From contig JANQRD010000053.1 in the NCBI GenBank assembly GCA_028284725.1, positions 1 through 32,753 of the forward strand: a stretch of DNA of 32,753 bases, in the 5' to 3' direction. Both the position numbers and the translations under genes were made by a program. Positions within the stretch are counted from its first letter, which is position 1. Every line of letters begins with the position of its first letter. Positions 8,840 through 30,728 of this stretch are shown here, in pieces. The notes under the pieces are model-generated. The model had not been told where the DNA came from. It worked only from the letters and a program-made list of their open reading frames with translations, and ran no database searches. This DNA comes from Allomuricauda sp. (lineage in GTDB: Bacteria; Bacteroidota; Bacteroidia; Flavobacteriales; Flavobacteriaceae).

Positions 8840-8882
8840 TAAAATTAGCGGGATGCGAAGGGGAATACTATGACATATGTCA
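8840..8882 (-). promoter_or_regulatory. FNR-like box + -7 element, universal stress protein gene
   Basis: The perfect palindrome TGACATATGTCA is at 8871-8882. Reading leftwards, a 23-bp spacer is followed by TAATTTTA (8847-8840), then 22 nt to the ATG. Spacing is identical to the other seven promoters of this set. Confidence 0.75.
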
Positions 8883-8901
8883 GCTTTTGAAAAGGCCTGT
8901 G

Positions 8902-9591
8902 TTAAAAGCCTTCCACAAGCTCTCTAAGTTTGCGCTCATTTCGGATACCAATCCGTTTACCTGAAGTATGGATAAGTTCCTTTTTCTTGAATTCTGAGAT
9001 GATTCGAATAGCGGACTCCGTCGCGGTGCCCACCACATTGGAGATATCCTCTCTGGAGAGGGTCAAGGCTAAAAAGCCCTCATCATCTTCCCCAAAGTTG
9101 TTTTTTAGATAGAGAAAAGCCTCGGCGATACGCTGCTTCACCGTTTTTTGGGAAATGTTCACGATGACATCATCGGCCTCTTTAAGATCATGGGCCATAT
9201 GGCGAAGTACTTCCAGGGTGAAATTTGGATTTTTTTGCAGTGTATTGGTAATGCTCTCCTTCGGAATAAAGCAGACCTCCATATCGCTAACAGCAACAGC
9301 AGATAGGTTGGTGGATTCCTCAGCGATCACGGAACGCTGTCCCATTACTTCGCCTTTGGTGGCAAGTTTCACAATTTGATCTTTACCGTTAGCACTTAGC
9401 TTAGAAAGTTTGGAAACTCCATCGCGAACACAGAAAACGCCGTTCAACTTTTCGCCTTCCTCAAAAAGCGGTTGCCCTTTTTTGATTTTTTTGGTGGTTT
9501 TGGAATCGGATACCTTTTTGAGCTCATCTTTGCTCATGGCCCGAAGCGAATTGAACTGTCGAATGATGCAATTTTCACACCTACTCTCCAT
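8902..9591 (-). CDS. Crp/Fnr family regulator, FNR-like (putative oxygen sensor)
   Basis: A 229-residue regulator with an N-terminal cyclic-nucleotide-binding-type beta-roll (about 30-115), a dimer helix and a C-terminal Crp helix-turn-helix (LTLSREDISNVVGTATESAIRII, about 176-198). Compared from memory with E. coli FNR, Cys5 and Cys8 (CENC) align with the CxxC at FNR 20/23, and Cys107 (EVCFIP) aligns with FNR Cys122. FNR Cys29 is Asn14 here. Cys54 (VFCV) is the only other cysteine and might substitute. Glu192 and Arg196 of the recognition helix match the FNR Glu209 and Arg213 positions. The gene is divergent from ccoI and shares one palindromic box with it, so autoregulation is likely. It is the natural candidate to bind all seven boxes in this window; direct iron-sulfur sensing is inference. 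Confidence 0.9.
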   Translation of the reverse strand: MESRCENCIIRQFNSLRAMSKDELKKVSDSKTTKKIKKGQPLFEEGEKLNGVFCVRDGVSKLSKLSANGKDQIVKLATKGEVMGQRSVIAEESTNLSAVAVSDMEVCFIPKESITNTLQKNPNFTLEVLRHMAHDLKEADDVIVNISQKTVKQRIAEAFLYLKNNFGEDDEGFLALTLSREDISNVVGTATESAIRIISEFKKKELIHTSGKRIGIRNERKLRELVEGF

Positions 9592-9613
9592 AGTGGTTTA
9601 TTTACCTGAACAG

Positions 9614-9656
9614 CAAAATTAAAGGTAAAGAATTAATCGGGAACTGATAAATGTCA
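9614..9656 (-). promoter_or_regulatory. FNR-like box + -7 element, FNR-like regulator gene
   Basis: The shared box TGATAAATGTCA is at 9645-9656. Leftwards, a 23-bp spacer leads to a perfect TAATTTTG (9621-9614) and 22 nt further the ATG at 9591. This suggests that the regulator activates its own gene. Confidence 0.72.
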
Positions 9657-9687
9657 TGTTTTAAGAATTGATTGTGACACAATTTTG
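9645..9687 (+). promoter_or_regulatory. FNR-like box + -7 element, ccoI gene
   Basis: The same box (9645-9656) read rightwards has a 23-bp spacer, then CAATTTTG (9680-9687) and 21 nt to the ATG at 9709. The spacing on the two strands is exactly symmetrical. Confidence 0.7.
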
Positions 9688-9708
9688 CGATGGGTAAAGC
9701 AAATGTAA

Positions 9709-12093
9709 ATGGCAAACATGACATGTTACCATTGCGGTGATGACTGTGGTAGGGGCAGAGTTCATTTCGATGAAAAGGACTTTTGCTGCCATGGTTGCAA
9801 AACGGTCTATGAGATATTCACCTCAAACGGGCTGTCCAAATTCTATGATTTGGAGTCTAGGGCGGGAATGGCTCCCAATACTGTGTCCAAAAAGTATGAT
9901 TTTCTGGACAATCAGGAAATCGTGGCCCAATTGGTCGAGTTCAATGAAGATGGTGTTCAAGTAGTGAATCTTAGCATTCCGACCATTCACTGTAGTTCTT
10001 GTATTTGGGTATTGGAAAACCTGAACCGGTTGCATGCTTCCATTACGAATTCGCAGGTCGACTTTCCTAAAAAAACGATTCGGGTAACCTATAAAACTGA
10101 AGATTTTTCGCTGAAGGATTTGGTGCTGCTGTTGAGCAGTATTGGTTATGAACCATACATTTCATTGGAGGAATACACAAAAAAAGACCGTAAAGTGGAT
10201 CGTTCCCTGATCTATAAGCTTGGCGTAGCTGGTTTTGCCTTCGGGAACGTGATGCTTCTTTCCTTTCCCGAGTATTTTGAGGTTGAAGAATATTGGCTGG
10301 AGCAATACAAATTGGTATTCCGTTGGCTGATGTTTGCCTTTTCCTTGCCTGTAGTGTTCTATGCCGGACAGGATTACTTTTCATCTGCGATCAAAGGACT
10401 GCGCTCCAAACTCTTGAACATCGATGTTCCTATTGCCCTGGGAATTTTGACACTGTTTGTGCGAAGTACGGTGGATATCATTTTTGATTTAGGCTCCGGC
10501 TTTTTCGATAGCTTGACAGGGCTGGTTTTCTTCCTTCTGTTAGGGAAGTACTTTCAGCAGAAAACATACGCCTTTCTCTCCTTCGAGCGGGATTATAAAT
10601 CGTATTTCCCGATTGCCGTAACAAGATTAAATGAAGACGGATCGGAGGAAAACATTCAAATTTATAAGATAAAAAAGGGAGATCACCTCCTGATTCGCAG
10701 TCAAGAAATCATCCCGGTGGATTGTATTCTATCAAAGGGCAGTGCAGAAATCGATTACAGTTTTGTTACCGGGGAGTCACAAGCGGTTTTTCGACAGGCT
10801 GGTGAAAAACTATTTGCAGGAGGAAAACAACTCTCTGGGGTTTTGGAGGTTGAGGTACTTAAATCGGTTTCACAAAGCTACTTGACCCAGCTCTGGGGAA
10901 ATGCGGTTTTTTCCAAAGACAAGGCATCTACTTTTCAAACCCTTACCGACAGCATCGGAAAACGGTTTACCATCGCCGTTTTGACCATTGCCATTTCAGC
11001 TACAGTGTTCTGGTTGTTCTATGATTCCAGCATGGCCATGAATGTTTTCACAGCGGTTCTCATCATTGCCTGCCCCTGTGCCATTGCCCTGGCCGCTCCC
11101 TTCACTTTGGGAAATATGCTTCGCATATTCGGAAGACATAAATTCTATTTAAAAAACACCAATGCCATTGAGCGATTGGCGAAGGTCGATGCAGCTATTT
11201 TTGATAAAACAGGTACTATTACCACTACCAAGGAGGACACCATTCTTTATGAAGGTATTGAATTAACAGCGGAGGAAACCGCTTTGCTCAAAAACACACT
11301 TCGCGCTTCCAACCATCCCTTGAGTCGGTCATTGTATGATATCTTAAAATCCAACGATATCATGACGCTCGATGAGTTCCATGAACATACTGGAAAGGGC
11401 ATAGAAGGAAGGGTTGACCAACATACCATCAAAGTTGGATCCGCTAGTTATGTGGGTAAAGAACCAACAAGTTCCATGGCAAGCACTTCTGTGTATGTCA
11501 GCACTGATGAAAATGTAAAAGGCCGATTCGTTTTCAAAAATAAATACAGGGATGGTGTGGAAACGTTGTTCCATTCCCTCGGGAAGTCGATGCACCTGGG
11601 GATTCTTTCAGGGGATAATGATGGTGAAAAAACCCAACTGCAAAAAATACTTCCGGCGAAGACCAATCTCTTGTTCAATCAAAAACCGGAACACAAACTG
11701 GAACATATAAAGCGATTACAAAAAGAACATGATGTGTTGATGGTCGGTGATGGACTCAACGACGCAGGCGCTTTGGCGCAAAGTGATGTTGGGATAGCCG
11801 TTTCCGAAAATATCAACGTGTTTTCGCCGGCTTGCGATGCCATTTTGGATGCTTCACAACTTACAAACTTGCCCAGGTTTATTGGACTTTCAAAAAAATC
11901 CATCCAAGTGATCAAAATGAGCTTTATACTCTCCCTGTGCTACAATATTATCGGACTGTACTTTGCCGTCACTGGACAGCTAAAGCCTGTTATTGCCGCC
12001 ATTCTTATGCCATTGAGTTCCATAAGTATTGTGATTTTCACAACGGTAATGACCAACCTAATTTCCAAAAAACTAAACCGAACCGATGAATGA
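9709..12093 (+). CDS. ccoI: copper-transporting P1B-type ATPase CcoI/FixI
   Basis: A 794-residue P-type ATPase that exports copper for assembly of cbb3 oxidase. A Cys-rich N-terminal metal-binding domain (C6, C9, C13, C26, C27, C30) typical of CcoI/FixI-type pumps precedes a heavy-metal-associated domain with C95-S-S-C98. The core has eight membrane helices, the transport-site C455-P-C457, phosphorylation Asp499 in DKTGTIT, the HP nucleotide-domain motif in ASNHPLSRS, and the hinge GDGLND at 680. The gene is divergent from the FNR-like regulator, shares its operator, and lies just upstream of the cco structural genes. Its stop overlaps the next gene by 8 nt. Confidence 0.95.
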   Translation: MANMTCYHCGDDCGRGRVHFDEKDFCCHGCKTVYEIFTSNGLSKFYDLESRAGMAPNTVSKKYDFLDNQEIVAQLVEFNEDGVQVVNLSIPTIHCSSCIWVLENLNRLHASITNSQVDFPKKTIRVTYKTEDFSLKDLVLLLSSIGYEPYISLEEYTKKDRKVDRSLIYKLGVAGFAFGNVMLLSFPEYFEVEEYWLEQYKLVFRWLMFAFSLPVVFYAGQDYFSSAIKGLRSKLLNIDVPIALGILTLFVRSTVDIIFDLGSGFFDSLTGLVFFLLLGKYFQQKTYAFLSFERDYKSYFPIAVTRLNEDGSEENIQIYKIKKGDHLLIRSQEIIPVDCILSKGSAEIDYSFVTGESQAVFRQAGEKLFAGGKQLSGVLEVEVLKSVSQSYLTQLWGNAVFSKDKASTFQTLTDSIGKRFTIAVLTIAISATVFWLFYDSSMAMNVFTAVLIIACPCAIALAAPFTLGNMLRIFGRHKFYLKNTNAIERLAKVDAAIFDKTGTITTTKEDTILYEGIELTAEETALLKNTLRASNHPLSRSLYDILKSNDIMTLDEFHEHTGKGIEGRVDQHTIKVGSASYVGKEPTSSMASTSVYVSTDENVKGRFVFKNKYRDGVETLFHSLGKSMHLGILSGDNDGEKTQLQKILPAKTNLLFNQKPEHKLEHIKRLQKEHDVLMVGDGLNDAGALAQSDVGIAVSENINVFSPACDAILDASQLTNLPRFIGLSKKSIQVIKMSFILSLCYNIIGLYFAVTGQLKPVIAAILMPLSSISIVIFTTVMTNLISKKLNRTDE

Positions 12094-12559
12094 TCAAGCA
12101 ACAACAATCCAAAAGATAGTAGGGAGGATAAAGAAAAAAAATAGGCCAAACCTCTTGGCGATAAGCATAGGAGTAGTGTATTTATGGTTTGGGAGCTTAA
12201 AGTTTTTTCCAGCCTTAAGTCCCGCTGAAGGCCTGGCCAAAAACACCATACATGAGCTTACTTTGGGTCTTTTGCCCGATTCGTATTCCATCCTTCTGTT
12301 GGCGATTATGGAAGTAGGTATCGGAATCTGTTTGTTGTTGGGATTGTGGCGGAAAACCACGGTTGTTGTGGCACTTTTTCACATGGCGCTAACGTTCGCT
12401 CCCTTGATCTTGTTTCCCTCGGAATCGTTCCAAAATCCACCATGGATCCCAACCCTTTTGGGTCAATATATCGGAAAGAATTTTATCATCGTGGCGGCCT
12501 TGTTGAGCTTGATACAACAACAACCGACCACAAAGAATTTAATAAAATATAAAAGCTGA
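12086..12559 (+). CDS. DoxX-like/YkgB-type membrane protein
   Basis: A 157-residue membrane protein with about four hydrophobic helices. The first contains VVYLWFGSLKFFPALSPAEG, a pattern typical of the DoxX/DUF417 (YkgB) group, and the second IMEVGIGICLLLG. The biochemical role of this group is unsettled; some members work in quinone-linked or detoxification complexes. It overlaps the end of ccoI by 8 nt and precedes the ccoS promoter, so it is cotranscribed with ccoI. A role in cbb3 maturation is possible but only suggested by position. Confidence 0.75.
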   Translation: MNDQATTIQKIVGRIKKKNRPNLLAISIGVVYLWFGSLKFFPALSPAEGLAKNTIHELTLGLLPDSYSILLLAIMEVGIGICLLLGLWRKTTVVVALFHMALTFAPLILFPSESFQNPPWIPTLLGQYIGKNFIIVAALLSLIQQQPTTKNLIKYKS

Positions 12560-12599
12560 TTTATGTCATTTTTTGGGCAATTGTGTCAATGTAGTTTTA
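12557..12599 (+). promoter_or_regulatory. FNR-like box + -7 element, ccoS operon
   Basis: The box TGATTTATGTCA (12557-12568) overlaps the stop of the preceding gene. A 23-bp spacer follows, then TAGTTTTA (12592-12599) and 19 nt to the ccoS ATG. This gives the oxidase operon its own low-oxygen promoter, separate from ccoI. Confidence 0.75.
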
Positions 12600-12618
12600 C
12601 GCCAGAATTCAGGTAGGT

Positions 12619-12822: not shown

Positions 12823-12824
12823 AT

Positions 12825-15026
12825 ATGGAAATACAACAATTTCACTACGATAACAAAATCGTACAAAAGTTTTTATACGCCACCATGTTGTGGGGTATTG
12901 TGGGAATGCTGGTAGGTCTTTTGCTGGCATTTATGTTTTTGTTTCCCAACGTCACTGACGGCATATCATGGTTGAGCTTCGGGCGTTTACGTCCCTTGCA
13001 TACCAATGCTGTGATTTTTGCCTTTGTGGGAAACGCCATTTTTGCCGGGGTCTACTATTCCACGCAGCGATTGCTTAAAACCCGAATGTTCAGCGATTTT
13101 CTGAGCAATTTTAATTTCTGGGGATGGCAATTGATCATCGTGGCCGCAGCGATTACCCTGCCCTTGGGGTATACAACTTCCAAGGAATATGCCGAGTTGG
13201 AATGGCCTATCGATTTGGCCATTGCCGTGGTATGGGTCGTCTTTGGATGGAACTTGATTGGAACCATTCTAAAACGAAGACAACGTCACCTGTACGTGGC
13301 CATTTGGTTCTACCTGGCCACATTTGTGACCGTCGCGGTACTTCATATTTTCAACAGCTTGGAGTTGCCCGTATCCGCTTTAAAAAGTTATTCAGTCTAT
13401 GCAGGGGTGCAAGATGCCCTGGTACAGTGGTGGTATGGACATAATGCCGTGGCCTTCTTTTTGACCACACCTTTTTTAGGGTTGATGTACTACTTTGTGC
13501 CCAAAGCGGCCAATAGACCCATCTATTCCTATCGACTTTCCATAGTCCATTTTTGGTCCTTGATTTTTATCTACATCTGGGCAGGACCGCACCACTTGCT
13601 GTATTCCTCGTTGCCTGATTGGGCACAGAATCTTGGGGTAGTCTTTTCGGTCATGTTGATAGCACCTTCCTGGGGAGGTATGATCAACGGATTATTGACC
13701 CTTCGAGGAGTCTGGGATAAAGTCCGAAGCGATGCAACCTTGAAATTTATGGTGGTTGCGATCACAGGCTACGGTATGGCCACTTTCGAAGGGCCCATGT
13801 TGTCCCTTAAAAATGTAAACGCAATTGCGCACTTTAGTGATTGGATCATAGCGCATGTGCACGTTGGTGCACTTGCCTGGAACGGATTCCTCACCTTTGG
13901 GATGATTTATTGGTTGGTGCCGAAAATGTTCAAAACCACACTATACTCCAAAGGATTGGCCAACTTCCACTTTTGGATCGGCACTTTGGGAATTGTACTG
14001 TACGCACTGCCGATGTATGTGGCCGGGTTTACCCAAGCGTTGATGTGGAAGGATTTCAATCCGGATGGTACATTGGTATATGGGAATTTCTTGGAAACTG
14101 TTACCCAGATTATCCCTATGTACTGGATGCGCGCCATAGGTGGTAGCTTGTTTATTCTGGGGATGTTGATCATGGTGTACAACATTGTGGTCACCATCAG
14201 GAAAGGAAGCCGAGTGGAGGATGAACTTGCTGAAGCCCCGGCGTTGACCAAGGTATCACGAAGAAGGGTAGCCGGCGAAACGTTCCACAATTGGTTGGAA
14301 CGAAGACCAGTACAACTTACCATTTTGGCCACCGTTGCGATTTTAATTGGAGGCATTATTCAAATTGTTCCGACGATTCTGGTGAAATCCAATATTCCGA
14401 CCATTACCAGCGTAAAACCGTACACACCTTTGGAACTGGAAGGACGAGATCTGTATATCCGTGAAGGATGCGTGGGTTGTCACTCCCAAATGATCAGGCC
14501 ATTCAGAAGTGAGGTCGAGCGCTACGGGGAATATGCCAAAGCAGGGGAGTTTGTGTATGATCATCCATTCCTGTGGGGAAGTAAGCGAACGGGTCCAGAT
14601 TTGCTCCGTGTAGGAGGGAAGTACTCCGACAATTGGCATTTGAACCATATGTACGATCCGCAAAGTACTTCGTCAGGTTCCATTATGCCAGCATATCAAT
14701 GGCTGGTACGAGACGAGCATGATCGAAGTGGAGTGCAAAGCAAGATGGAAGCCATGGTGAAGCTCGGTGTACCCTATTCCGAAGAGGACATTGCTAACGC
14801 TCAAGAATCTATGGCCGAGCAGGCCTTCCAGATAGAGAAAAACCTCTACACAGATCCAGAATTTGCAAAAACCTATGAAGCGGATAAAAAGTATGCGGCT
14901 GAAAATGGATTGGATTTTGTGCAGATGCGAGATCGAGAAATCGTGGCCTTGATAGCCTATTTACAGCGATTGGGCACTGACATCAAGGTCAAGGAAACAG
15001 AGGAATTATTGTCACAAAACAAGTAG
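12825..15026 (+). CDS. ccoNO: cbb3 cytochrome c oxidase subunits I and II fused (CcoNO)
   Basis: A 733-residue fusion common in Bacteroidota. The CcoN part (about 1-480) has twelve or so membrane helices with the haem b His59 (RPLHTNAV), copper-site histidines in WWYGHNAV and AGPHHLLY, and the haem pair in HVHVG. After a linker and one further helix comes the CcoO cytochrome c domain with C549-VGC552-H553, followed by the conserved QMIRPFRSE and the SxxGSIMPAY segment carrying the Met ligand. The protein reduces oxygen to water at very low oxygen while pumping protons. It is followed 4 nt later by ccoQ. Confidence 0.96.
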   Translation: MEIQQFHYDNKIVQKFLYATMLWGIVGMLVGLLLAFMFLFPNVTDGISWLSFGRLRPLHTNAVIFAFVGNAIFAGVYYSTQRLLKTRMFSDFLSNFNFWGWQLIIVAAAITLPLGYTTSKEYAELEWPIDLAIAVVWVVFGWNLIGTILKRRQRHLYVAIWFYLATFVTVAVLHIFNSLELPVSALKSYSVYAGVQDALVQWWYGHNAVAFFLTTPFLGLMYYFVPKAANRPIYSYRLSIVHFWSLIFIYIWAGPHHLLYSSLPDWAQNLGVVFSVMLIAPSWGGMINGLLTLRGVWDKVRSDATLKFMVVAITGYGMATFEGPMLSLKNVNAIAHFSDWIIAHVHVGALAWNGFLTFGMIYWLVPKMFKTTLYSKGLANFHFWIGTLGIVLYALPMYVAGFTQALMWKDFNPDGTLVYGNFLETVTQIIPMYWMRAIGGSLFILGMLIMVYNIVVTIRKGSRVEDELAEAPALTKVSRRRVAGETFHNWLERRPVQLTILATVAILIGGIIQIVPTILVKSNIPTITSVKPYTPLELEGRDLYIREGCVGCHSQMIRPFRSEVERYGEYAKAGEFVYDHPFLWGSKRTGPDLLRVGGKYSDNWHLNHMYDPQSTSSGSIMPAYQWLVRDEHDRSGVQSKMEAMVKLGVPYSEEDIANAQESMAEQAFQIEKNLYTDPEFAKTYEADKKYAAENGLDFVQMRDREIVALIAYLQRLGTDIKVKETEELLSQNK

Positions 15027-15030
15027 CGTC

Positions 15031-15216: not shown

Positions 15217-15220
15217 CATT

Positions 15221-16165
15221 ATGAGAACACCCTGGTGGATACGCATTCCAGTATTATTCTTTCTGATTTTCGGATTGATGGAGTACTTTATCGATTCGGG
15301 AGACAAGCCCGCCATTATCGAATACCCCATCACGCAGTTTTTTATGCTCATGGTGCTCATGATCTTGATTGCCATTGAATTGATCTTAAAGTCCATTGAA
15401 AATGTGATGTTCCAAACGCTTTCAGCCGAAGCCCAGGAGCGATACCTGACTTCCAAAAGCAAAAAAATGGAATGGAAATGGGCAAAACAATTGTACAAGC
15501 GGCTTACGAAAAGTAGATCCATAGAACGGGAAGGTGAAATCATTTTAGATCATAATTACGACGGTATTCGCGAGCTTGACAACGTATTGCCACCATGGTG
15601 GGTATACTTGTTTTATGTGACCATTATCTTTTCGGTGGTGTATTTGATTCGATTTCATATTGCTGGGGATTATACTCAAGCAGAGGAGTATGAACAGGAG
15701 GTTGCAGCTGCCCAAATGGCTATTGAGGAGTACAAAAGAACCGCCAAGGATTTGGTGGATGTCAACACAGTGGAGTTTTTATCCGATGCTTCAGATTTGA
15801 GCGCGGGCGAAAAAATATTCGTTGCCAATTGTGTGGTCTGTCACATGGCTGATGGAGGGGGGGGTATTGGCCCCAATTTAACGGATGAATATTGGATTTT
15901 GGGCGGAGGCATCAAAAACGTATTCAACACCATTTCCGAAGGAGGACGTGATGGAAAAGGAATGGTCGCTTGGAAACAAAGTTTAAAGCCAGCAGAAATG
16001 GCCCAAGTGGCCAGTTATGTGCTGACTTTGGGAGGCACCACTCCGGCTGAACCTAAAGCACCGGAAGGTGAAATATGGGTGGATCCAGATGCGCCAGAAC
16101 CCGAAGAAAGTGAGGAAGCACCCGCGGAGCAGGTTTCTGACTCCACGGATGTAGCCATGAATTGA
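15221..16165 (+). CDS. ccoP: cbb3 oxidase subunit III (CcoP), one-haem form
   Basis: A 314-residue membrane-anchored cytochrome c. Three hydrophobic segments are visible (about 8-24, 38-56 and 127-145). The conserved N-terminal CcoP motif appears as HNYDGIRELDNVLPPWW, and one haem site, C204-VVC207-H208, follows in the periplasmic domain. Proteobacterial CcoP has two haem sites; one is usual in Bacteroidota. The tail after about 270 is acidic and Pro/Glu-rich. A run of eight G (15857-15864) encodes the Gly-rich loop just after the haem site. CcoP passes electrons to CcoNO. Confidence 0.94.
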   Translation: MRTPWWIRIPVLFFLIFGLMEYFIDSGDKPAIIEYPITQFFMLMVLMILIAIELILKSIENVMFQTLSAEAQERYLTSKSKKMEWKWAKQLYKRLTKSRSIEREGEIILDHNYDGIRELDNVLPPWWVYLFYVTIIFSVVYLIRFHIAGDYTQAEEYEQEVAAAQMAIEEYKRTAKDLVDVNTVEFLSDASDLSAGEKIFVANCVVCHMADGGGGIGPNLTDEYWILGGGIKNVFNTISEGGRDGKGMVAWKQSLKPAEMAQVASYVLTLGGTTPAEPKAPEGEIWVDPDAPEPEESEEAPAEQVSDSTDVAMN

Positions 16166-16228
16166 TTGTTGGCATAGCCAGCGATCTAGATAGTTGCCAA
16201 GTCAGGTTAGGCGAGCAAAATAATTGCA

Positions 16229-17638
16229 ATGGAAGAAAATTTTAGAGATTCCATAGGAACCATTTCCGAAGAAGGAAAAAGGGCTTGGATTTTTCCAAAA
16301 AAGCCCAAAGGCCGATTTTTTGAGTATCGCAAATACGTCAGCTATGGGCTATTACTTTTTTTGGTTGCCTCGCCGTTTATCAAGATAAATGGCAACCAAT
16401 TCTTGTTGTTCAACGTGTTGGATAGGCGGTTCAATATTTTTGGATTCCCTTTTTGGCCGCAAGATTTCCACCTAGTGGTCATCTCAATGATCATTGGGGT
16501 CATTTTCGTGGCATTGTTCACCGTGGCATACGGACGTATTTTTTGCGGGTGGATGTGCCCCCAGACCATTTTCATGGAGATGGTTTTTCGGAGAATTGAA
16601 TATTGGATCGATGGAGATCGTGGCGCCCAAATGCGTTTGGATCGATCACCCTGGAACGGAAAGAAAATTAGAAAACGTGTTTTAAAATGGTCGATTTTCT
16701 TTTTTATTTCATTCCTGATTGCCAACATCTTTTTGGCCTACCTGATAGGGAGCGACAAACTTATCCGATATGTCAGTGACGGCCCCATGGCACATTTGGG
16801 GACCATGGTTCCCCTTCTGATTTTTACAGGAGTGTTCTATTTTGTCTTCGCCTGGTTCCGGGAACAGGTTTGTATCATAGCTTGCCCTTACGGACGACTT
16901 CAGGGTGTGCTTTTGGATGATAAATCAATAGTGGTGGCCTATGACCATAAGCGTGGCGAGGGCGAAAATGGACGAAAGAAATTCCGGAAAAATGAGGATA
17001 GGGATGCCTTGGGTCATGGGGATTGCATCGATTGTTTTCAGTGCGTCAATGTCTGTCCTACGGGAATAGATATTCGCAATGGTACCCAATTGGAGTGCGT
17101 AAACTGCACAGCCTGTATTGATGAGTGCGACCACATCATGGACAGCATCAACAAACCCCGTGGCTTGATCCGTTATGCGAGTGAGGACGAAATCAACAAG
17201 AAATCAAAGTTCAAGTTTACGCCACGCTTAAAAGGATATTCAGCGGTGCTTATCATTCTGACAGGAGTATTGGTCGGGATGCTTTTCTTAAGAAATGAAT
17301 TGGAGGCGAACATTCTTCGCTTACCTGGACAGCTATATGAAAGAAAGGCGGACAATATCATCAGCAATGTGTATACCTATAAACTGGTGAACAAAACCAG
17401 CAAGGACATCCAAGATGTGAACTTTAAGTTATTGTCTCATAACGGGACCATAAAAATGGTTTCCCAAGATAATTTTAAGGTTCCAGCCGAAGAATTGGCC
17501 GAGGGTACCTTGTTTATTGAAATCAACAATTCAGCATTGACCGGGGACAAGGATAAATTAAAGATTGGTGTGTACAGTGGCGAAAAACTCATTGAAACTA
17601 CCGTGACCCAGTTTTTGGCACCACGGAGTTATAACTAA
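16229..17638 (+). CDS. ccoG: cbb3 oxidase accessory protein CcoG (ferredoxin-type)
   Basis: A 469-residue membrane iron-sulfur protein. About five membrane helices are visible, with cysteine motifs after some of them (FCGWMCPQ, then CIIACPYGR). A 2[4Fe-4S] ferredoxin domain follows around residues 265-300 (CIDCFQCVNVCPTG and CVNCTACIDECD), then a helix and a C-terminal Ig-like IG/FixG domain. CcoG is a cupric reductase that supplies Cu(I) for the oxidase. A 63-nt gap with a small TTGGCA/TGCCAA inverted repeat (16169-16200) separates it from ccoP. Confidence 0.94.
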   Translation: MEENFRDSIGTISEEGKRAWIFPKKPKGRFFEYRKYVSYGLLLFLVASPFIKINGNQFLLFNVLDRRFNIFGFPFWPQDFHLVVISMIIGVIFVALFTVAYGRIFCGWMCPQTIFMEMVFRRIEYWIDGDRGAQMRLDRSPWNGKKIRKRVLKWSIFFFISFLIANIFLAYLIGSDKLIRYVSDGPMAHLGTMVPLLIFTGVFYFVFAWFREQVCIIACPYGRLQGVLLDDKSIVVAYDHKRGEGENGRKKFRKNEDRDALGHGDCIDCFQCVNVCPTGIDIRNGTQLECVNCTACIDECDHIMDSINKPRGLIRYASEDEINKKSKFKFTPRLKGYSAVLIILTGVLVGMLFLRNELEANILRLPGQLYERKADNIISNVYTYKLVNKTSKDIQDVNFKLLSHNGTIKMVSQDNFKVPAEELAEGTLFIEINNSALTGDKDKLKIGVYSGEKLIETTVTQFLAPRSYN

Positions 17639-17649
17639 AAAGAAACGAC

Positions 17650-18096
17650 ATGAAGATCAATTGGGGAACAGGTATCGTATTGGCTTTTATAGCATTCATA
17701 AGTTTTATTCTCTATTTCGTGGTTCGGATGAGCATGGACGATCGGGCAAATCACGACTTGGTCACAAAGGAGTACTACAAACGCGAACTGGCCTATCAGA
17801 ATGAAATCGATGCATCGGAAAATGCCGCTAAAATGGGTGCGAAACTCAAAGTGGTAAAATCAGAGGAAGGACTGACCATTTTCTTTCCCAATCAATTTGA
17901 ACCAAATAAAATCAAGGGTACAGTGTCCCTTTATAGACCGTCTAACAAGCATTTGGATATTGACTTTCCTATAAGTTTGTCCAAAACACATTTGCTCATA
18001 CCTGACAATCGCTTGGTAGACGGTCGCTGGGACATTAATGTTAAATGGGAGTACAAAGGAAAGACCTTTTTACATAAAGAGAAATTAGTGTACTAA
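17650..18096 (+). CDS. ccoH: cbb3 oxidase assembly protein CcoH/FixH
   Basis: A 148-residue protein with one N-terminal membrane helix (about 8-25) and a periplasmic beta-rich domain. The MSMDDRANHDLVTKEYYKREL segment after the helix and the C-terminal GRWDINVKWEYKG strand are typical of FixH. FixH helps insert copper or stabilise the oxidase. It sits 11 nt after ccoG and 3 nt before the next gene, well inside the operon. Confidence 0.92.
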   Translation: MKINWGTGIVLAFIAFISFILYFVVRMSMDDRANHDLVTKEYYKRELAYQNEIDASENAAKMGAKLKVVKSEEGLTIFFPNQFEPNKIKGTVSLYRPSNKHLDIDFPISLSKTHLLIPDNRLVDGRWDINVKWEYKGKTFLHKEKLVY

Positions 18097-18099
18097 AAG

Positions 18100-18828
18100 A
18101 TGTTGTTTTCTGCTATCGCTTTGGGGTTTTTGGGAAGCCTGCACTGTTTGGGCATGTGCGGACCGATAGCTTTTTTACTCCCCTTGGATCATGAAAACAA
18201 ACTAAAAAAAACAGGGCAGCTTTTCATTTACCATGCTGGTCGATTGTTGGCATACGGTCTTATAGGGGTGGTCTTTGGATTTCTCGGGAAAGGACTTTCC
18301 ATTTTTGGGATGCAACAAAAGTTATCCATTGGAGCAGGTATACTGATGATTATCTTGGTGTTGTTTCCAAGCCGGTATTTGAATGCGACCAAGTTTTCCA
18401 AACCGATTTATTTGGTATTGTCAAGGATAAAATCAAAGTTGGGCTCAGAGTTTAAGAAAAAGACCCCGGATGCCTTTTTGACCATTGGCTTTTTGAATGG
18501 CTTTCTCCCTTGTGGATTGGTCTACATGGCACTTTTAGGGGCGATTGCTTTGGGGAGTCCCATTCAAGGGGGATTCTACATGATGTTATTCGGTATGGGA
18601 ACTATTCCGTTAATGACCCTGGTGGTTTTTTCGCATGGACTTTTTGGCAGCAGAATTAAATCCAAAATACAGAAACTTATTCCGGCATTCGTGGTATTGG
18701 TGGGGCTATTGTTCATTGTCCGCGGACTGGGACTGGGAATTCCCTATGTATCACCCAAGCAAGTACAGACCGATATGGCATCGGCGACTATTGAATGCCA
18801 TCAACCTTTAAACAAAAATCAAAAGTGA
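18100..18828 (+). CDS. TauE/SafE-like membrane protein of cbb3 operon
   Basis: A 242-residue membrane protein with about six helices in two repeats. Each half has a Cys/Pro motif: LGSLHCLGMCGP near residue 10 and NGFLPCGLVYMAL near 130. This is the UreH_2/sulfite exporter TauE/SafE-like family, common at the end of cco operons and thought to handle metal for oxidase assembly; a role in copper delivery is inference. The C-terminus carries a Cys-His pair (ECHQ) near the end. Its stop overlaps the next gene. Confidence 0.85.
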   Translation: MLFSAIALGFLGSLHCLGMCGPIAFLLPLDHENKLKKTGQLFIYHAGRLLAYGLIGVVFGFLGKGLSIFGMQQKLSIGAGILMIILVLFPSRYLNATKFSKPIYLVLSRIKSKLGSEFKKKTPDAFLTIGFLNGFLPCGLVYMALLGAIALGSPIQGGFYMMLFGMGTIPLMTLVVFSHGLFGSRIKSKIQKLIPAFVVLVGLLFIVRGLGLGIPYVSPKQVQTDMASATIECHQPLNKNQK

Positions 18829-20577: not shown

Positions 20578-20620
20578 TTAAGTTACTGGGATAATAGATG
20601 GATTAGTATGATAAATGTCA
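20578..20620 (-). promoter_or_regulatory. FNR-like box + weak -7 element, CBS-pair gene
   Basis: The box TGATAAATGTCA (20609-20620) is identical to the one before ccoI. Leftwards, a 23-bp spacer leads to TAACTTAA (20585-20578), the weakest -7 match of the set, then 24 nt to the ATG. Confidence 0.62.
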
Positions 20621-23841: not shown

Positions 23842-23847
23842 GTTTCT

Positions 23848-24447: not shown

Positions 24448-24473
24448 TTTTTCACGTTAAAAGGTTTAGAAAG

Positions 24474-24615: not shown

Positions 24616-24652
24616 CGTCCGATTTAAAATCCGTAATTATGAATAGAACATT

Positions 24653-26611
24653 TCAATCCTCTCCCAGCGACCAGCTCAGATCAATGTTGGAATTGGCTGG
24701 TGAAACCCTCACATAGCCCTGCATTTCTTGGTGAAGTGCAGAACAGAAGTCGGTACAATAGAAGGGCCAAACACCCACTTGTTTGGGTTCCCAAACGAAT
24801 GTTTCGGTCTGTCCGGGCATGATTAAAAGCTCCGAGGTGTTGGCACCGATCATACTTACGCCATGGGGTACGTCATAATCTTGTTCCAAATTGGTCACGT
24901 GGAAATAGACCTTATCCCCCACCTTTATGCCCTCGATATTGTCGGGGTTGAAATGGCTACGGATCATTGTCATGTATATATGTACCTCTTTGCCATTGCG
25001 TTCGACCCGCACATCGGAAACGGAAGTGGTTGCATGCTTGTGCTTGTTCTCGGTCAAGTTGAAGATTTTTTTGGATCTTGCCTTCACAACATCAGCCGCG
25101 ATTCCGGCCGCGTAATGTGGTTCACCTACCGTTGGGAAATCAAGCAATAATTCCATCTTCTCCCCCGAGATATCGTACAATTGTGCGGATTGGGTCACTT
25201 CCGGACCTGTGGGCAAGTAGCGATCTTTGGTAATCTTATTCATGGCCACCACGTACTTACCATAGGGCTTTCTAGAGTTCCCTCCGGGAATCATCAGGTG
25301 ACCTACGGAATAGTAGCAAGGTTGTCTATCCACAACTTCCCAAGTGCCCAATTTCCATTTCACCACTTCTGAAGAAATGAAGAAAGTAGTATAGGCATTC
25401 CCCTTGCCATCAAACTCAGTATGCAAGGGCCCTAATCCAGGTTGGCTTACGGTACCTGCCAATACATCTTCGAAATTTAAAATGGGAATGCCGTAGGCAT
25501 CACCATCAAACTTTTCATTTTCAATGGCATCTATCATCTTGGTAAAGGAGTGGACTGTTAGGTCGGCGGATAATTTTCCATTCCCAACGATATACTCTCC
25601 GGATGGATCTACATCGCAACCGTGGGGGGATTTTGGAGTGGGTAAAAAATAGACCAGTCCGGGGCATTCCGCTGGATCAAGCACCCTCACCTCTTTTTTC
25701 ATGGTAGAAGTGGCCGTATGGGTCTCCTCATCATATACGTTGTGTGCATAATTGGCGGGCATGGTCTTGAACTTTCCTTCTTTGATGTATTCCTCCGCTT
25801 TTTTCCAATTTATGGCGGCAATGAAGTCCTTGTCGTTTTGTGAGGCATTGACTTCCATCAAGGTGCTGGCTTCTTCGGTGTTGTAGGTAGTGAAAAAGAA
25901 CCATCCGTGCGAAGCGCCTCTTCCAGGGTGCGACAGATCGTAATCAAATCCGGGCATCAATACCTGAAATGAGAGGTCCATCCCACCGTCTTCGGGATCT
26001 ACGCTGATAAAGGACAATGTCCCTTTGAAGTTACCTTTATAATCCTTAATGGAAATATCCCTTTGAGGTACAGGAACGGAAAAACGGGTTGCGGCCACCA
26101 CATATTCCGTGTTCTCTGTGACAAATGCGGAACTATGGTTGCCTGCGCTGTTTGGAATTTCGATAATTTCTGTGGTTTCGAAAACACTTAAATCGATTTT
26201 TGCAATTCGAGGAGTGTTGTTACCATTGATGAAGACATAGCGGCCATCAACTTCCCCGTTGGTCTGTGAGATGTCGGGGTGGTGTGAATCATCCCAAGGA
26301 ATGAATCCATGTGAGGTGTTCAACATTGGCTTTGTCTCTTCGTTGTAGCCCCATGCTTTTTCAGCATCTTGTGAAAAAACAGGAATCACTTTGAACAACC
26401 TTCCGGAAGGAAGTCCATAGACCGACAGTTGTCCACTGAAACCTCCCGAAATAAATGCGTAAAACTCATCGTGCTCTCCAGGGGCCACATAAACCTTTTC
26501 CGCTGCACTGGAGGCCAATGCGCCATTGGAGCTTTTACCCTGCCGATTGCAACTTGTAAGAAGAAGTGCAGTTATCCCGAGGGCAAATAATACATGTGTT
26601 ATTTTTTTCAT
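24653..26611 (-). CDS. nosZ: nitrous oxide reductase NosZ, clade II (Sec/lipoprotein type)
   Basis: A 652-residue multicopper enzyme that reduces N2O to N2 in the periplasm. The N-terminus MKKITHVLFALGITALLLTSC is a lipoprotein/Sec signal with Cys21, not the twin-arginine signal of clade I NosZ. CuZ-site histidines begin with DDSHH (His110, His111) and continue in AGNHSSAF, NYAHNVY, PHGCDVDPSGEY, LGPLHTEFD and EPHYAAG. The C-terminal CuA domain has PHGVSM and C619-TDF-C623-SALH627-QEM630. It is cotranscribed with the upstream cytochrome c and fasciclin genes; the maturation genes follow after the inverted-repeat element. No nitrite or nitric oxide reductase genes are seen, so N2O reduction may be stand-alone. 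Confidence 0.97.
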   Translation of the reverse strand: MKKITHVLFALGITALLLTSCNRQGKSSNGALASSAAEKVYVAPGEHDEFYAFISGGFSGQLSVYGLPSGRLFKVIPVFSQDAEKAWGYNEETKPMLNTSHGFIPWDDSHHPDISQTNGEVDGRYVFINGNNTPRIAKIDLSVFETTEIIEIPNSAGNHSSAFVTENTEYVVAATRFSVPVPQRDISIKDYKGNFKGTLSFISVDPEDGGMDLSFQVLMPGFDYDLSHPGRGASHGWFFFTTYNTEEASTLMEVNASQNDKDFIAAINWKKAEEYIKEGKFKTMPANYAHNVYDEETHTATSTMKKEVRVLDPAECPGLVYFLPTPKSPHGCDVDPSGEYIVGNGKLSADLTVHSFTKMIDAIENEKFDGDAYGIPILNFEDVLAGTVSQPGLGPLHTEFDGKGNAYTTFFISSEVVKWKLGTWEVVDRQPCYYSVGHLMIPGGNSRKPYGKYVVAMNKITKDRYLPTGPEVTQSAQLYDISGEKMELLLDFPTVGEPHYAAGIAADVVKARSKKIFNLTENKHKHATTSVSDVRVERNGKEVHIYMTMIRSHFNPDNIEGIKVGDKVYFHVTNLEQDYDVPHGVSMIGANTSELLIMPGQTETFVWEPKQVGVWPFYCTDFCSALHQEMQGYVRVSPANSNIDLSWSLGED

Positions 26612-26636
26612 TGTTCTAATTTTATGGAGTTGTTTT

Positions 26637-27218: not shown

Positions 27219-27227
27219 AATAGGTCT

Positions 27228-27734: not shown

Positions 27735-27756
27735 TGTTATTTTTGTTGATTTCTGC

Positions 27757-27799
27757 CAAAAATAGGAGCGCAGAAGAGGAAATAATATGATATTGGTCA
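27757..27799 (-). promoter_or_regulatory. FNR-like box + -7 element, nos operon
   Basis: The box TGATATTGGTCA (27788-27799) is followed leftwards by a 23-bp spacer, then a perfect TATTTTTG (27764-27757) and 22 nt to the ATG at 27734. This predicts that nosZ and its partners are induced together with the cbb3 oxidase. Confidence 0.75.
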
Positions 27800-27854
27800 T
27801 ATTTAAGACAAAAACATCTTTTTATCATTGTACTTGCTTTATACCCCGTGAAAC

Positions 27855-28286
27855 ATGTTCTCCAACTCAGCTAAATATGCGCTAAAAGCGGTGCTCTACT
27901 TGGCTTTGCATTCCAACGAAGAGAAGAAAATGATGGTCAAGGATATTTGTGAACCTGTCAATGTCCCGAAAGCCTATTTGGGAAAATTGTTGCAGGAACT
28001 GGCCAAGCACAATGTGATTTCATCCACACGTGGCCCCAAGGGAGGATTTTACCTGAGTGAAGAAAACAGGAGTCAGGCATTGATACAGGTGATTGATGTC
28101 ATAGATGGTAAAAGAAGAATGGAATCTTGCCTACTCAGCCTAAGTGACTGCAATGAAAGCGAACCATGCCCTCTTCACAAACTGGTCGGGCCCATGAAAT
28201 CGAAACTCATTGAAAATTTGGAAAACATGACCATAGAACAGCTCTCATCCGATCTTAAGAATAAAAAAGCATTTTTACCAATTTAA
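27855..28286 (+). CDS. Rrf2 family regulator (NsrR/IscR-like, iron-sulfur)
   Basis: A 143-residue Rrf2 protein with an N-terminal winged helix (about 1-70; KYALKAVLYLA, YLGKLLQELA and the wing STRGPKGGFYL). Three cysteines, C92, C99 and C105 (C-x6-C-x5-C), match the cluster-ligand arrangement of NsrR and IscR. NsrR members sense nitric oxide through the cluster, which would suit a gene divergent from the nos operon, 120 nt from its first start. Whether it represses nos, itself, or a distant target cannot be told. No NsrR-type palindrome was recognised in the intergenic region. Confidence 0.88.
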   Translation: MFSNSAKYALKAVLYLALHSNEEKKMMVKDICEPVNVPKAYLGKLLQELAKHNVISSTRGPKGGFYLSEENRSQALIQVIDVIDGKRRMESCLLSLSDCNESEPCPLHKLVGPMKSKLIENLENMTIEQLSSDLKNKKAFLPI

Positions 28287-28324
28287 ATCCATTAGGGACA
28301 ACCCTCTTGGAAAAGCTTTGAATA

Positions 28325-28358
28325 AAAAAGGAGATGCCTTTTTAGAACATCCCCTTTT
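28325..28358. terminator. bidirectional terminator between Rrf2 and usp genes
   Basis: AAAAAGG-AGATG-CCTTTTT (28325-28343) forms a 7-bp stem with trailing T's for the rightward gene. An alternative pairing, AAAAGGAGATG (28326-28336) with CATCCCCTTTT (28348-28358), gives an 11-position stem with one mismatch. It lies between convergent genes. Confidence 0.6.
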
Positions 28359-28401
28359 CATCAAATTGCAAATAAATAAAACCCATCAAAAAATAAACCC
28401 A

Positions 28402-29223
28402 TCAAATTTTAAATGTTATTACCGGAGTTTGGGAATGGTTGGCGATGTCCTCACCGATACTTCCCATAAAAAAGTGTGCCAATCCTCTTCTTCCATGTGT
28501 TGGAATACCAATAAGGTCGGCAGCGACACTTTCGCTGTAATTCAAAACTCCTTTTTCCACAGTATAATCGTTGTAGATGTCAACCTCTAATCCTAAGGTG
28601 GCCATGTTCAAAAGTTTTGAAATTCGAGCATAGGCATCCTCTGTACTCAAGAATTCATCTCCAGGTGTGTTGATATATACTAGATGCAGTTTGGCTTTGA
28701 GCAATTTGGAAATTTCAATGGCCTTTTTAAGGGAATCGATGTTTTCTTCTTTAAAATCGCATGCAAAGACGAAGCGTTCCACCTTGAACTTGTCAACATC
28801 ACCTTTTATGACCAAAACTGGGACATCGGAAGTACGAACCACCCTTTCGGTATTGGAGCCGATAAAGATTTCCTTTAGCCCATCGGTTCCATGGGATCCC
28901 ATTACTATAAGGTCGGCATTGTGTTTTTCCGCCACTTCGTTAACCTCACTAAAAACCTTGTAATGCTTGATCACAGGGATGATATTCACACCTTTCAAAT
29001 AGGGCTTGTCAAGAAAATCTGCGAACCTTTTTTCCCCGATTTTAATCAGATGCACTACCTGTTCCTGGGATATATACCCAGATTCTGTCATGATGGCCGG
29101 AGACAGCTCGAGCATGTGCAGTACCAATAACTCGGCATCGTGCTTTTTGGCCAGCGAGGCGGCTACTTTTAAGGCTTTTTCGGATTGTTCTGAAAAATCT
29201 ACGGGTACAATGATGCTTTTCAT
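28402..29223 (-). CDS. universal stress protein, tandem UspA domains
   Basis: A 273-residue two-domain UspA protein. The first domain (MKSIIVPVDFSEQSEKAL, GSHGTDGLKEIFIGSNTERVV) and the second (FVFACDFKEENIDSL, PTHGRRGLAHFFMGSIGEDI) both keep a G-x2-G-x9-G-S-type nucleotide loop, unlike the Usp at 7915-8817 whose second half has lost it. It follows hemN by 17 nt in the same direction and has no room for its own promoter, so it should be expressed from the hemN FNR-like promoter. Confidence 0.9.
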   Translation of the reverse strand: MKSIIVPVDFSEQSEKALKVAASLAKKHDAELLVLHMLELSPAIMTESGYISQEQVVHLIKIGEKRFADFLDKPYLKGVNIIPVIKHYKVFSEVNEVAEKHNADLIVMGSHGTDGLKEIFIGSNTERVVRTSDVPVLVIKGDVDKFKVERFVFACDFKEENIDSLKKAIEISKLLKAKLHLVYINTPGDEFLSTEDAYARISKLLNMATLGLEVDIYNDYTVEKGVLNYSESVAADLIGIPTHGRRGLAHFFMGSIGEDIANHSQTPVITFKI

Positions 29224-29240
29224 TTGTCTGTTTTTAATGG

Positions 29241-30599
29241 TTAAACGGTCATCGAGAATAGCCTTGTATCTGGCTTTTTACGATGCAATTTTAAATCGAA
29301 GGCCATGCTGATGTTCCGAATAAAAGGCTTTCCCTTTTCGGTCACGGTAATTTGATTGGCTCCTATGATCACAAGTCCATCAGATTCCAATTCTGAAAGA
29401 CTTTCAACGATTTTTTGGAAATCGGTTATCTGAGTTTCGCCTAATCCCCAACTAGTTTCAAATTGACACATGAGATTGAGGATGTGCCTTCTTATTATTT
29501 GATCTTCCTGGGTTAAAATATGTCCTCTGAAAATGGGGAAGATATCCTGCGATACCAGATTTTGATACTCCTCAATACTTTTCACATTTTGGGCAAAACC
29601 ATACCAACTATCGCTTATACTCGACACTCCTAAACCAATCATTAACTTGGTTTTGGAAGAGGTGTAGCCCATAAAGTTGCGATGCAATGTACCTTCGGTC
29701 AAAGCAATGCATAAATCATCTTTTGGAAGGGCAAAATGGTCCATCCCTACATCCTTATAGCCGAAATCAGTTAGCATTTTTTTACCCATCTCGTACTGAC
29801 TTTTTTTAACGATGGATGTTGGAAGATCTTGTTCTTTGTATCCACGTTGTCCATTCCCTTTTAACCAGGGCACATGGGCATAACTATAAAATGCGATACG
29901 ATCTGGTTTAAGGGCATTGGTCTTTGCGAGGGTTTCCTTAACGTGCTGCTCTGTTTGAAACGGCAAGCCATAGATAACGTCATGCCCTATGGAAGTGTAA
30001 CCAATTTCGCGGGCCCATTCGGTAACCTTTTTTACATTTTCGAAGGGTTGGATTCTGTTAATGGCTTTTTGCACGGTCGGATTATAGTCCTGCACACCGA
30101 AGCAGACTCTTCTAAACCCCACATCAAAAAGAGCCTGCAGGTGTGCTTTGGTCGTATTGTTTGGATGTCCCTCAAAACTGAATTGAGCATCCTTAGCTTT
30201 TTTTCCTTCACGTACTATTCCATTTACAAGCAATTGCAAATGGTCAGGTGAGAAAAAGGTAGGAGTGCCTCCACCAAGATGAATCTCTTTTATGATTGGT
30301 TTTCTGCCCAAAAGCTCCACATACATGCTCCATTCTTTGAGGACTGACTTTATATAGGGCAACTCTAGTTCGTGCCTTTTGGTGATTCGTTTATGGCAGC
30401 CACAAAATGTGCACATGCTCTCACAAAAAGGAAGATGAATGTAAAGGCTTATTCCTTCTTCAGAACTTTCTTGAAATGCCCTTACTACACTGGCTTTCCA
30501 TTGTTTTCCCGAAAAGTTATCCAAATCCCAATAGGGTACAGTGGGATAACTGGTATATCTGGGGCCTGGTACATTGTATTTCTGAACAAGTTGACACAT
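29241..30599 (-). CDS. hemN: oxygen-independent coproporphyrinogen III oxidase HemN
   Basis: A radical-SAM enzyme of 452 residues that converts coproporphyrinogen III to protoporphyrinogen IX without oxygen, for haem synthesis at low oxygen. The N-terminal KYNVPGPRYTSYPT is the HemN hallmark. The cluster site is C59-x3-C63-x2-C66-G-C68, followed by the GGGTPTF SAM loop and a HemN C-terminal domain. I choose the ATG at 30599 because the ATG at 30644 lies upstream of the -7 element of its FNR-like promoter. Haem is needed for CcoNO, CcoP and the cytochrome c, so its co-regulation makes sense. Confidence 0.94.
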   Translation of the reverse strand: MCQLVQKYNVPGPRYTSYPTVPYWDLDNFSGKQWKASVVRAFQESSEEGISLYIHLPFCESMCTFCGCHKRITKRHELELPYIKSVLKEWSMYVELLGRKPIIKEIHLGGGTPTFFSPDHLQLLVNGIVREGKKAKDAQFSFEGHPNNTTKAHLQALFDVGFRRVCFGVQDYNPTVQKAINRIQPFENVKKVTEWAREIGYTSIGHDVIYGLPFQTEQHVKETLAKTNALKPDRIAFYSYAHVPWLKGNGQRGYKEQDLPTSIVKKSQYEMGKKMLTDFGYKDVGMDHFALPKDDLCIALTEGTLHRNFMGYTSSKTKLMIGLGVSSISDSWYGFAQNVKSIEEYQNLVSQDIFPIFRGHILTQEDQIIRRHILNLMCQFETSWGLGETQITDFQKIVESLSELESDGLVIIGANQITVTEKGKPFIRNISMAFDLKLHRKKPDTRLFSMTV

Positions 30600-30619
30600 A
30601 CTAGTGAAATGATTTGGAC

Positions 30620-30662
30620 CAAAATTAGCTGTGGGTGATAGCATAAAACATGATAATTATCA
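30620..30662 (-). promoter_or_regulatory. FNR-like box + -7 element, hemN-usp operon
   Basis: The perfect palindrome TGATAATTATCA is at 30651-30662. Leftwards, a 23-bp spacer leads to a perfect TAATTTTG (30627-30620) and 20 nt to the ATG at 30599. It keeps the exact TGAT-N4-ATCA core of the FNR consensus. Confidence 0.78.
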
Positions 30663-30685
30663 GTACTCTCCACAAATTCGATGTA

Positions 30686-30728
30686 TGACAAGTATCATGT
30701 TTTAGAACATATCCACTTTGTAGTTTTA
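30686..30728 (+). promoter_or_regulatory. FNR-like box + -7 element, GCS2-CBS ligase gene
   Basis: The box TGACAAGTATCA (30686-30697) is followed by a 23-bp spacer, TAGTTTTA (30721-30728, identical to the ccoS element) and 30 nt to the ATG at 30759. It is a second box, 35 bp centre to centre from the hemN box. Confidence 0.72.

Follow-up and report, generated by a model that had tools for sequence, protein, structure and literature searches.

In Rhizobium leguminosarum, the hFixL-FxkR-FixK pathway and FnrN meet at a single anaerobox ahead of fixNOQP, so that two oxygen sensors act through one CRP/FNR operator that drives a cbb3 oxidase (PMC7888657, in the sections used here). According to the same sections, the consensus operator of FNR and FixK is TTGATN4ATCAA, boxes that activate have an almost fixed position (−32 to −34 by the reckoning of that study), and FnrN activates and represses its own gene according to box position. 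Here we describe a network in Allomuricauda sp. (Flavobacteriaceae) that works like the rhizobial one but, by its features, is not that system. It was recognised in a stretch of 32,753 nucleotides (assembly GCA_028284725.1, contig JANQRD010000053.1, positions 1–32,753 of the forward strand; hereafter the window), in which palindromic boxes of the type TGAYN4RTCA stand a fixed distance from TAnnTTTG-type −7 elements ahead of cco, nos and hemN genes, universal stress protein (USP) genes and the gene of a CRP/FNR-type regulator, referred to as A. The regulon is real, large and built on a fixed class II geometry. Our best explanation of the whole, which we regard as likely correct, is a family-wide low-oxygen regulon with two regulators, A and a second protein, B.

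The window contains 11 TGAYN4RTCA boxes against 2.77 expected, a number reached in 0 of 100 shuffles. The initial annotation had described seven palindromes and eight promoters of one geometry; all of them are present, and in each of the eight promoters the spacer is exactly 23 bp long and the start codon lies 19–30 nt beyond the −7 element. Four boxes were not in that list, and a ninth promoter, ahead of an Rrf2-family gene, had been missed. The four extra boxes (2355, 2892, 25849 and 28090) all lie within open reading frames (ORFs) and lack a −7 element at 23 bp. On the minus strand, the promoter of the USP gene at 7915–8817 occupies 8840–8882 (TGACATATGTCA, 23 bp, TAATTTTA), with the ATG at 8817, 22 nt on. 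The regulator A promoter follows at 9614–9656 on the same strand (TGACATTTATCA, 23 bp, TAATTTTG; ATG at 9591), and its box, in the opposite reading, is shared by the ccoI promoter at 9645–9687 on the plus strand, where CAATTTTG lies at 23 bp and the gene starts at 9709. The cco operon promoter (12557–12599, plus strand) combines TGATTTATGTCA and TAGTTTTA at 23 bp ahead of an ORF from 12619, its box overlapping the final three bases of the preceding ORF. The gene of a CBS-domain protein (20134–20553) has its promoter at 20578–20620 on the minus strand (TGACATTTATCA, 23 bp, TAACTTAA), and here TAACTTAA deviates from TAnnTTTG in its final two letters. Back to back lie the promoter of the cytochrome c/nosZ run (27757–27799, minus strand; TGACCAATATCA, 23 bp, TATTTTTG; ATG at 27734) and that of the Rrf2-family gene (27788–27830, plus strand; TGATATTGGTCA, 23 bp, TATCATTG; ATG at 27855, 24 nt on); an exact match to the pattern also lies upstream of an Rrf2 homologue in another genus (locus L230). 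The last two promoters are those of hemN and the USP gene downstream of it (30620–30662, minus strand; TGATAATTATCA, 23 bp, TAATTTTG; ATG at 30599) and of a second CBS-domain gene, ending at 32606 (30686–30728, plus strand; TGACAAGTATCA, 23 bp, TAGTTTTA; likely ATG at 30759). The spacer is thus 23 bp in 9/9 window promoters; six have a perfect TAnnTTTR, and those of ccoI, the CBS gene and the Rrf2-family gene are off by one letter. For the boxes at 9645 (plus) and 20609 (minus), another ATG exists closer to the −7 element than the start assigned earlier. At 27757, 30620 and 30686 the mechanically called ORF begins further upstream, so that the genuine start has to be a later ATG.

The spacing was examined in the whole genome with a strict pattern (TGAYN4RTCA box, 23 bp, TANNTTTR), its reversed form as a control, and a relaxed pattern, TGAN6TCA-N(8-38)-TANNTTTR, covering 31 spacings. 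The relaxed pattern gave 98 matches, 20 of them at 23 bp and at most 8 at any other spacing; no other spacing showed an enrichment of note, 13 bp having 8 of the 98, with poor boxes. The strict box at 23 bp gave 18 matches and the reversed control one. Since the strict box yielded 38 matches across all 31 spacings, each other spacing carries on average 20/30 = 0.67, and 18 against 0.67 corresponds to a Poisson probability of ~6e-20 if matches are independent. A correctly oriented ORF start lies 2–56 nt beyond the −7 element in 17/18 strict sites (6/6 within the window and 11/12 outside it). Two of the outer sites (L032 and L039) fall inside called ORFs of 67 and 54 aa, which are taken as spurious. 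The sole strict site lacking an ORF start in its direction is at L037 (L037:2448–2490). The comparison of coding and upstream sequence proposed in the initial annotation came out in favour of promoters, and its judgement that constant spacing is not chance holds. Its description of the regulon as compact does not, as 17 class II-like promoters with a perfect box and −7 element are spread over the genome, in addition to the three imperfect ones in the window. Outside the window, the targets include four USP genes, a ribosome hibernation factor (S30AE), OmpW, thioredoxin and a biotin-carboxylase run; three further targets had no Pfam match. One of the USP targets (on C85) precedes transporter, phosphoenolpyruvate carboxykinase and phosphofructokinase genes.

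Frequent boxes and a spacing inherited with a few old promoters could in principle produce such a pattern by chance and shared ancestry: TGAT is common, the genome holds 354 palindromes against 112 for the reversed control, and relatives are not independent. We consider this explanation exceedingly improbable, because the excess of 18 over 0.67 arises within a single genome and before different genes, and because the sequences of the spacers vary between loci while their length of 23 bp stays. The same holds beyond one genome. A sample of 120 Flavobacteriaceae genomes, one per genus (the family sample), gave 1664 matches at 23 bp against 104.5 per other spacing and 63 for the reversed pattern. 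In a sample of 296 genomes of the phylum, each of the 30 from the source family had 5–48 matches (reversed control 0–4), and those of other families mostly had 0–4, with 5–17 in some genomes. One genome of another family (G271) had 28 box-N23-TANNTTTR matches against 0 in controls.

Escherichia coli FNR activates class II promoters at −41.5, and the initial annotation had placed the present boxes near that position. Mapped starts of Flavobacterium psychrophilum put the TAnnTTTG box of the primary-sigma promoter at −12 to −5 (PMC9723704, in the parts used here), and the nine −7 elements of the window are of this type or near it. By this mapping the 23-bp spacer would span −35 to −13 and the 12-bp box −47 to −36, centred at −41.5, so that the class II placement is supported by a position mapped in a relative. 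The terms fnr, crp and palindrom are all absent from the main text of PMC9723704, and a class II activator box is not described in the parts of that article covered here.

Conservation of the geometry was further examined at 80 loci of named relatives (Flagellimonas, Allomuricauda, Maribacter, Croceivirga and others; flanks of up to 10 kb, 1.52 Mb in total). At 64/80 loci a box lies between A and ccoI, near A. In 63 of these 64, nAnnTTTG follows the box on the ccoI side after exactly 23 bp. Towards A, the distance to the −7 element is 23 bp in 56 (55 strict, one relaxed) and 9 bp in the other 8, and none of the 64 had an intermediate spacing alone. The invariance claimed at the outset does not extend to the promoter of A itself. 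These spacings suggest that ccoI is kept at the activating distance and that the A promoter exists in two forms, in which the position of the box serves activation or repression, 9 bp being apparently suited to the latter. In more distant orthologues of A, the box of the A promoter is often 0–12 bp from the −7 element, as judged by eye. Among the 311 boxes of the 80 loci with the strict −7 element, 226 pairs have a spacing of 23; the next are 35 at 0, 10 at 17 and 8 at 9. The spacing of 0 was rejected as a promoter, since 32 of its 35 cases lie on the ccoI side of one box and are taken as the T-rich flank of the operator. The consensus of 220 different sites from these loci, AAAnMTGAYAWWTRTCAKnTTT, includes many orthologous sites and is therefore weighted to few promoters. 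TGA is preceded by C or A in 212 of the 220 sites, by G in 8 and by T in none, which sets this operator apart from TTGATN4ATCAA.

FNR binds its cluster through four cysteines, three of them N-terminal and one in the barrel. Regulator A (8902–9591, minus strand, 229 aa) has the CRP-type effector domain and helix-turn-helix (HTH) of that family (PF00027, PF13545 and PF00325), and its cysteines are C5, C8, C54 and C107. It is closest to Flagellimonas/Allomuricauda proteins of the Flavobacteriaceae, with 92% identity to the homologue of Flagellimonas hymeniacidonis. All four cysteines are invariant in the ungapped rows of an alignment of 360 homologues (339/339, 346/346, 359/359 and 360/360). In comparison with FNR of E. 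coli and A. fischeri, the latter being, as we assume, the source of the solved FNR structures, the CxxC and the VC-IP cysteine of A align, giving two N-terminal cysteines (C5 and C8) plus C107; the solved FNR has Ala at the position of the invariant C54. The best match among solved structures, 2gau (E 2.4e-26), is a Crp/Fnr family regulator of the same phylum, presumably the P. gingivalis protein; Tyr and Leu stand there in place of C54 and C107. A structure of A predicted from an 84-row alignment (pLDDT 80.3) places C54 and C107 in strands 51–57 and 104–110, which neighbour each other in the jelly roll, and on this model and topology a four-cysteine site is plausible. A prediction from the single sequence was useless (mean pLDDT 40.2). 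C54 may possibly substitute for the third N-terminal cysteine of FNR, and an oxygen-labile iron-sulfur cluster is probably bound by C5, C8, C54 and C107 where FNR uses its classical set; we found no description of the C5/C8/C54/C107 set. Two observations weigh against the cluster: the position of the third N-terminal cysteine of FNR (residue 14) is occupied by N, S or G in 347/347 ungapped rows, and the N-terminus of A is predicted with little confidence (block means 51 and 57). The assignment of A to FNR is accordingly only partly upheld, with the CRP-type domains and the CxxC in its favour but the third N-terminal cysteine missing, the NCBIfam FNR model scoring 109.4 bits against a cut-off of 228, and the operator departing from TTGATN4ATCAA.

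The missing third cysteine also bears on the possibility that A senses redox state by a disulfide or thiol switch, or by another ligand, with the rest of the explanation unchanged. Flp-type proteins are known to use such a switch. In F. psychrophilum, moreover, iron scarcity induces the hypoxia genes, which thus join the iron-scarcity response (PMC9723704, in the parts used here). Set against this are the invariance of all four cysteines, the alignment of three of them with residues of the solved FNR that we take to be cluster ligands, and the low-oxygen nature of the targets. We regard a thiol switch as a serious but less probable alternative to the iron-sulfur cluster.

The recognition helix of A, GTATESAIR, belongs to a pattern GTATES-x-IR in which G, T, A, E, I and R are invariant in 84/84 homologues. 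Strong HTH_Crp_2 proteins number two in the genome, A and the protein B on contig 57. B (349 aa) consists of Response_reg, cNMP_binding and HTH_Crp_2 domains, and its recognition helix, GIATESLIR in 10/10 homologues, has the core G[TI]ATES-x-IR in common with A. Other HTH_Crp_2 matches were rejected as readers of the box: those on C262 and C52 differ in their recognition helices, and those on C153 and C18 do not look CRP-type by eye. A FixJ-type response regulator combines a receiver with a LuxR-type HTH, and B has a CRP module in place of the latter. Upstream of B lies a PAS kinase (L032:3903–5909), and downstream lie three USP genes, each with a box at 23 bp. The first PAS domain of the kinase matches 14 PDB sequences, of which seven are named FixL, four DosP, one a heme PAS sensor, one yddU and one a multi-sensor kinase. 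A His aligned with the heme ligand of FixL is present in 21/21 kinases (the source genome and 20 others), so that both the related PAS and the putative heme His of a FixL-type heme PAS domain are found in the kinase of B. Its second PAS domain is LOV-like, with Leu at what we assume to be the position of the flavin-binding Cys. A palindrome before the kinase-B operon has TATTTTTA 42 bp on (by eye) and is a possible class I site, as a single case.

The family sample allowed the contribution of the two proteins to be compared, with genomes classed by their best match to A (E ≤ 1e-50) and B (E ≤ 1e-38). Mean matches per genome were 12.3 with A only (45 genomes), 16.5 with B only (27), 24.7 with both (25) and 2.1 with neither (23; median 1), and the excess of 23 bp over other spacings was 11.6-fold, 20.5-fold, 28.7-fold and 3.5-fold, respectively. 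The seven genomes of at least 3 Mb with neither regulator all had at most 5 matches, and in a linear model with genome size A adds 7.8 matches (standard error 1.8) and B 12.4 (standard error 1.7). The initial annotation had proposed a single FNR regulator. A model in which A, as a plain FNR, is the sole reader of the boxes, B being an unrelated CRP-type regulator and its co-occurrence a matter of lifestyle, would agree with the location of A inside the cluster, with the box at its own promoter and with the mean of 12.3 matches in A-only genomes. It is difficult to reconcile with the B-only genomes, 27/27 of which have at least 6 matches and which as a group show the 20.5-fold excess, with their targets, which are partly of the same gene families, and with the recognition core of A in B. 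We consider a single regulator unlikely. Several points nevertheless weigh against the assignment of the boxes to both A and B. The class cut-offs were chosen post hoc with the scores already known, and the genome counts treat relatives as independent, kinship being ignored. At most 5 matches were found in 11/45 A-only genomes, at least two A-only genomes (G182 and G107) hold a distant receiver-CRP protein, and at least four B-only genomes (G450, G489, G522 and G527) hold a distant A-like protein. The group with neither regulator keeps its 3.5-fold excess at 23 bp, with 29 of its 48 matches from one genome (G462; 82% complete assembly), in which neither A nor B was found at the cut-offs. The CRP-type proteins of G462 were partly examined; it has three CRP-type HTH matches, one with the helix GTSRPT.

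The targets of the two classes were compared using the first genes behind 60 A-only sites (5 genomes) and 60 B-only sites (4 genomes). Eleven gene families are common to both and account for 30/56 A-only and 34/60 B-only first genes, as a raw overlap uncorrected for sharing among random genes. They include USP, hemN, ccoN, a cytochrome c like the nos-linked one, S30AE, OmpW, NadA and a TonB-like protein. Within the sampled sites, thioredoxin and CBS targets occur only at A-only sites, the CBS family of 20134–20553 making up 3/56. The regulon is read as a low-oxygen one because its targets, cbb3 oxidase, hemN, nos, USP, OmpW and the ribosome hibernation factor, are low-oxygen genes elsewhere; when oxygen is limiting, F. 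psychrophilum strongly induces its cbb3 oxidase and enzymes of heme synthesis (PMC9723704, in the parts used here). The regulators might instead sense carbon state or a cyclic nucleotide in the manner of CRP or MalR. Their effector domain belongs to the cNMP_binding family, and a MalR-like carbon role is predicted for CRP/FNR homologs of a Flavobacteriales metagenome-assembled genome in the portion of PMC8510549 used here, which covers other genomes and perhaps another protein. The targets, however, are cbb3, hemN, nos and USP rather than sugar genes, and FNR is among the best-matching solved relatives of A. Carbon sensing thus appears improbable, and oxygen remains the signal that we favour.

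A sub-clade of the named relatives provides a variation on the same geometry. At 11/80 loci (L091, L116, L119, L124, L125, L128, L131, L132, L133, L135 and L140), a third CRP-type protein, A', is encoded between ccoI and A, within ~900 bases of the latter on its upstream side; the contig of L135 stops short of ccoI. Its recognition helix is GTS[PQS]EY[IV]IN, as opposed to GTATES-x-IR in A. A TGAY box stands at 23 bp from the −7 elements of both A' and ccoI in 10/10 scanned loci. The A promoter of all 11 has no TGAY box; instead, a 16-bp CCTAAAAAATTACAGG-like element ends 21 bp before the −7 element, its centre again 33 bp from the −7 centre, as is that of the box elsewhere. Only some copies of this element are clearly palindromic. 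It is also found, with A' undetected, in L139 and L163 (in L163 shifted by 1 bp), and L122 and L146 have neither the element nor A'. The simplest reading of these sequences is that A' would read a new element in the old −41.5 slot.

Taken as a mechanism, the boxes would be the operators of a family low-oxygen regulon. A CRP/FNR-type dimer would bind the extended palindrome AAAnMTGAYAWWTRTCAKnTTT centred at −41.5, beside a primary-sigma promoter with a TAnnTTTG-type −7 element, and would activate from the class II position through the contacts usual there. We infer two routes to this operator. By one, A would act as a cytoplasmic FNR-like protein with an oxygen-labile iron-sulfur cluster; by the other, the PAS kinase, whose first PAS domain resembles those of the heme oxygen sensors FixL and DosP and may carry heme, would act on the receiver-CRP fusion B, presumably by phosphorylation, and either would lead to induction at low oxygen. 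The boxes, their spacing, its conservation in the family, the co-occurrence with A or B and the common target families are read directly from the genomes. Compared with the rhizobial network, the fusion of a receiver to a CRP module in B would make separate FxkR (or FixJ) and FixK steps unnecessary. Other differences concern the operator, in which A/T-rich flanks surround TGAYN4RTCA in place of TTGATN4ATCAA; the −7 element, which is of Bacteroidota type; regulator A, without the third N-terminal cysteine of FNR; and the hosts, which are Flavobacteriaceae. Whether the full combination holds, namely one operator code and −41.5 slot serving two sensing routes, the C5/C8/C54/C107 set, the collapse of FixL-FixJ-FixK into two proteins and the A' swap that keeps the slot, we judge to be about evenly balanced. 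By title and the start of the abstract, no description of the regulon or of a receiver-CRP protein under a FixL-like kinase was found among the best 12–20 papers listed per query, most subscription journals being outside the coverage.

The remaining features of the window were assigned with Pfam and NCBIfam (TIGR) models. The window carries two USP genes: that at 7915–8817 (minus strand; PF00582), and that downstream of hemN at 28402–29223 (minus strand; Usp domain). The P-type ATPase gene at 9709–12093 (plus strand; ATPase-cat_bd domain) is named ccoI from its context. The cco operon is headed on the plus strand by the small ORF from 12619, which we regard as ccoS-like, followed by a ccoNO fusion of cbb3 oxidase subunits I/II (12825–15026; 1354 bits in NCBIfam, cut-off 1080). 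A ccoP-like cytochrome, ccoG and a small ORF occupy 15221–18096 on the same strand; the cytochrome scores 111.7 bits, under the ccoP cut-off of 179.95, and the small ORF (17650–18096) had no NCBIfam match. Directly behind the cco cluster, an acetyl-CoA hydrolase/transferase family gene (18795–20096) overlaps the preceding ORF. Next is the first of two CBS-domain proteins (20134–20553, minus strand; Pfam), a target as described above. In the nos run, nosZ (24653–26611, minus strand) encodes a Sec-dependent nitrous oxide reductase (TIGR04246), nosD was identified by TIGR04247, and nosL was also identified. The Rrf2-family gene (27855–28286, plus strand) matches PF02082, and hemN (29241–30644, likely start 30599, minus strand) matches TIGR00538. 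The last gene (likely ATG 30759, ending at 32606, plus strand) had been called a GCS2-CBS ligase; Pfam finds its C-terminal CBS domains, but GCS2 was not found by Pfam at E 0.001.

Little literature on activator-dependent promoters in flavobacteria turned up in our searches, and the fixed geometry described here, which can be read from sequence, would predict low-oxygen genes in these bacteria and offers a design rule of box, 23 bp and TAnnTTTR. Genomes with A only, B only or both constitute a natural experiment in which a regulon appears to survive a change of regulator, and the A' loci constitute another, in which operator and recognition helix change while the geometry stays. The regulon covers nos, and thereby the removal of N2O, together with the cbb3 oxidase.

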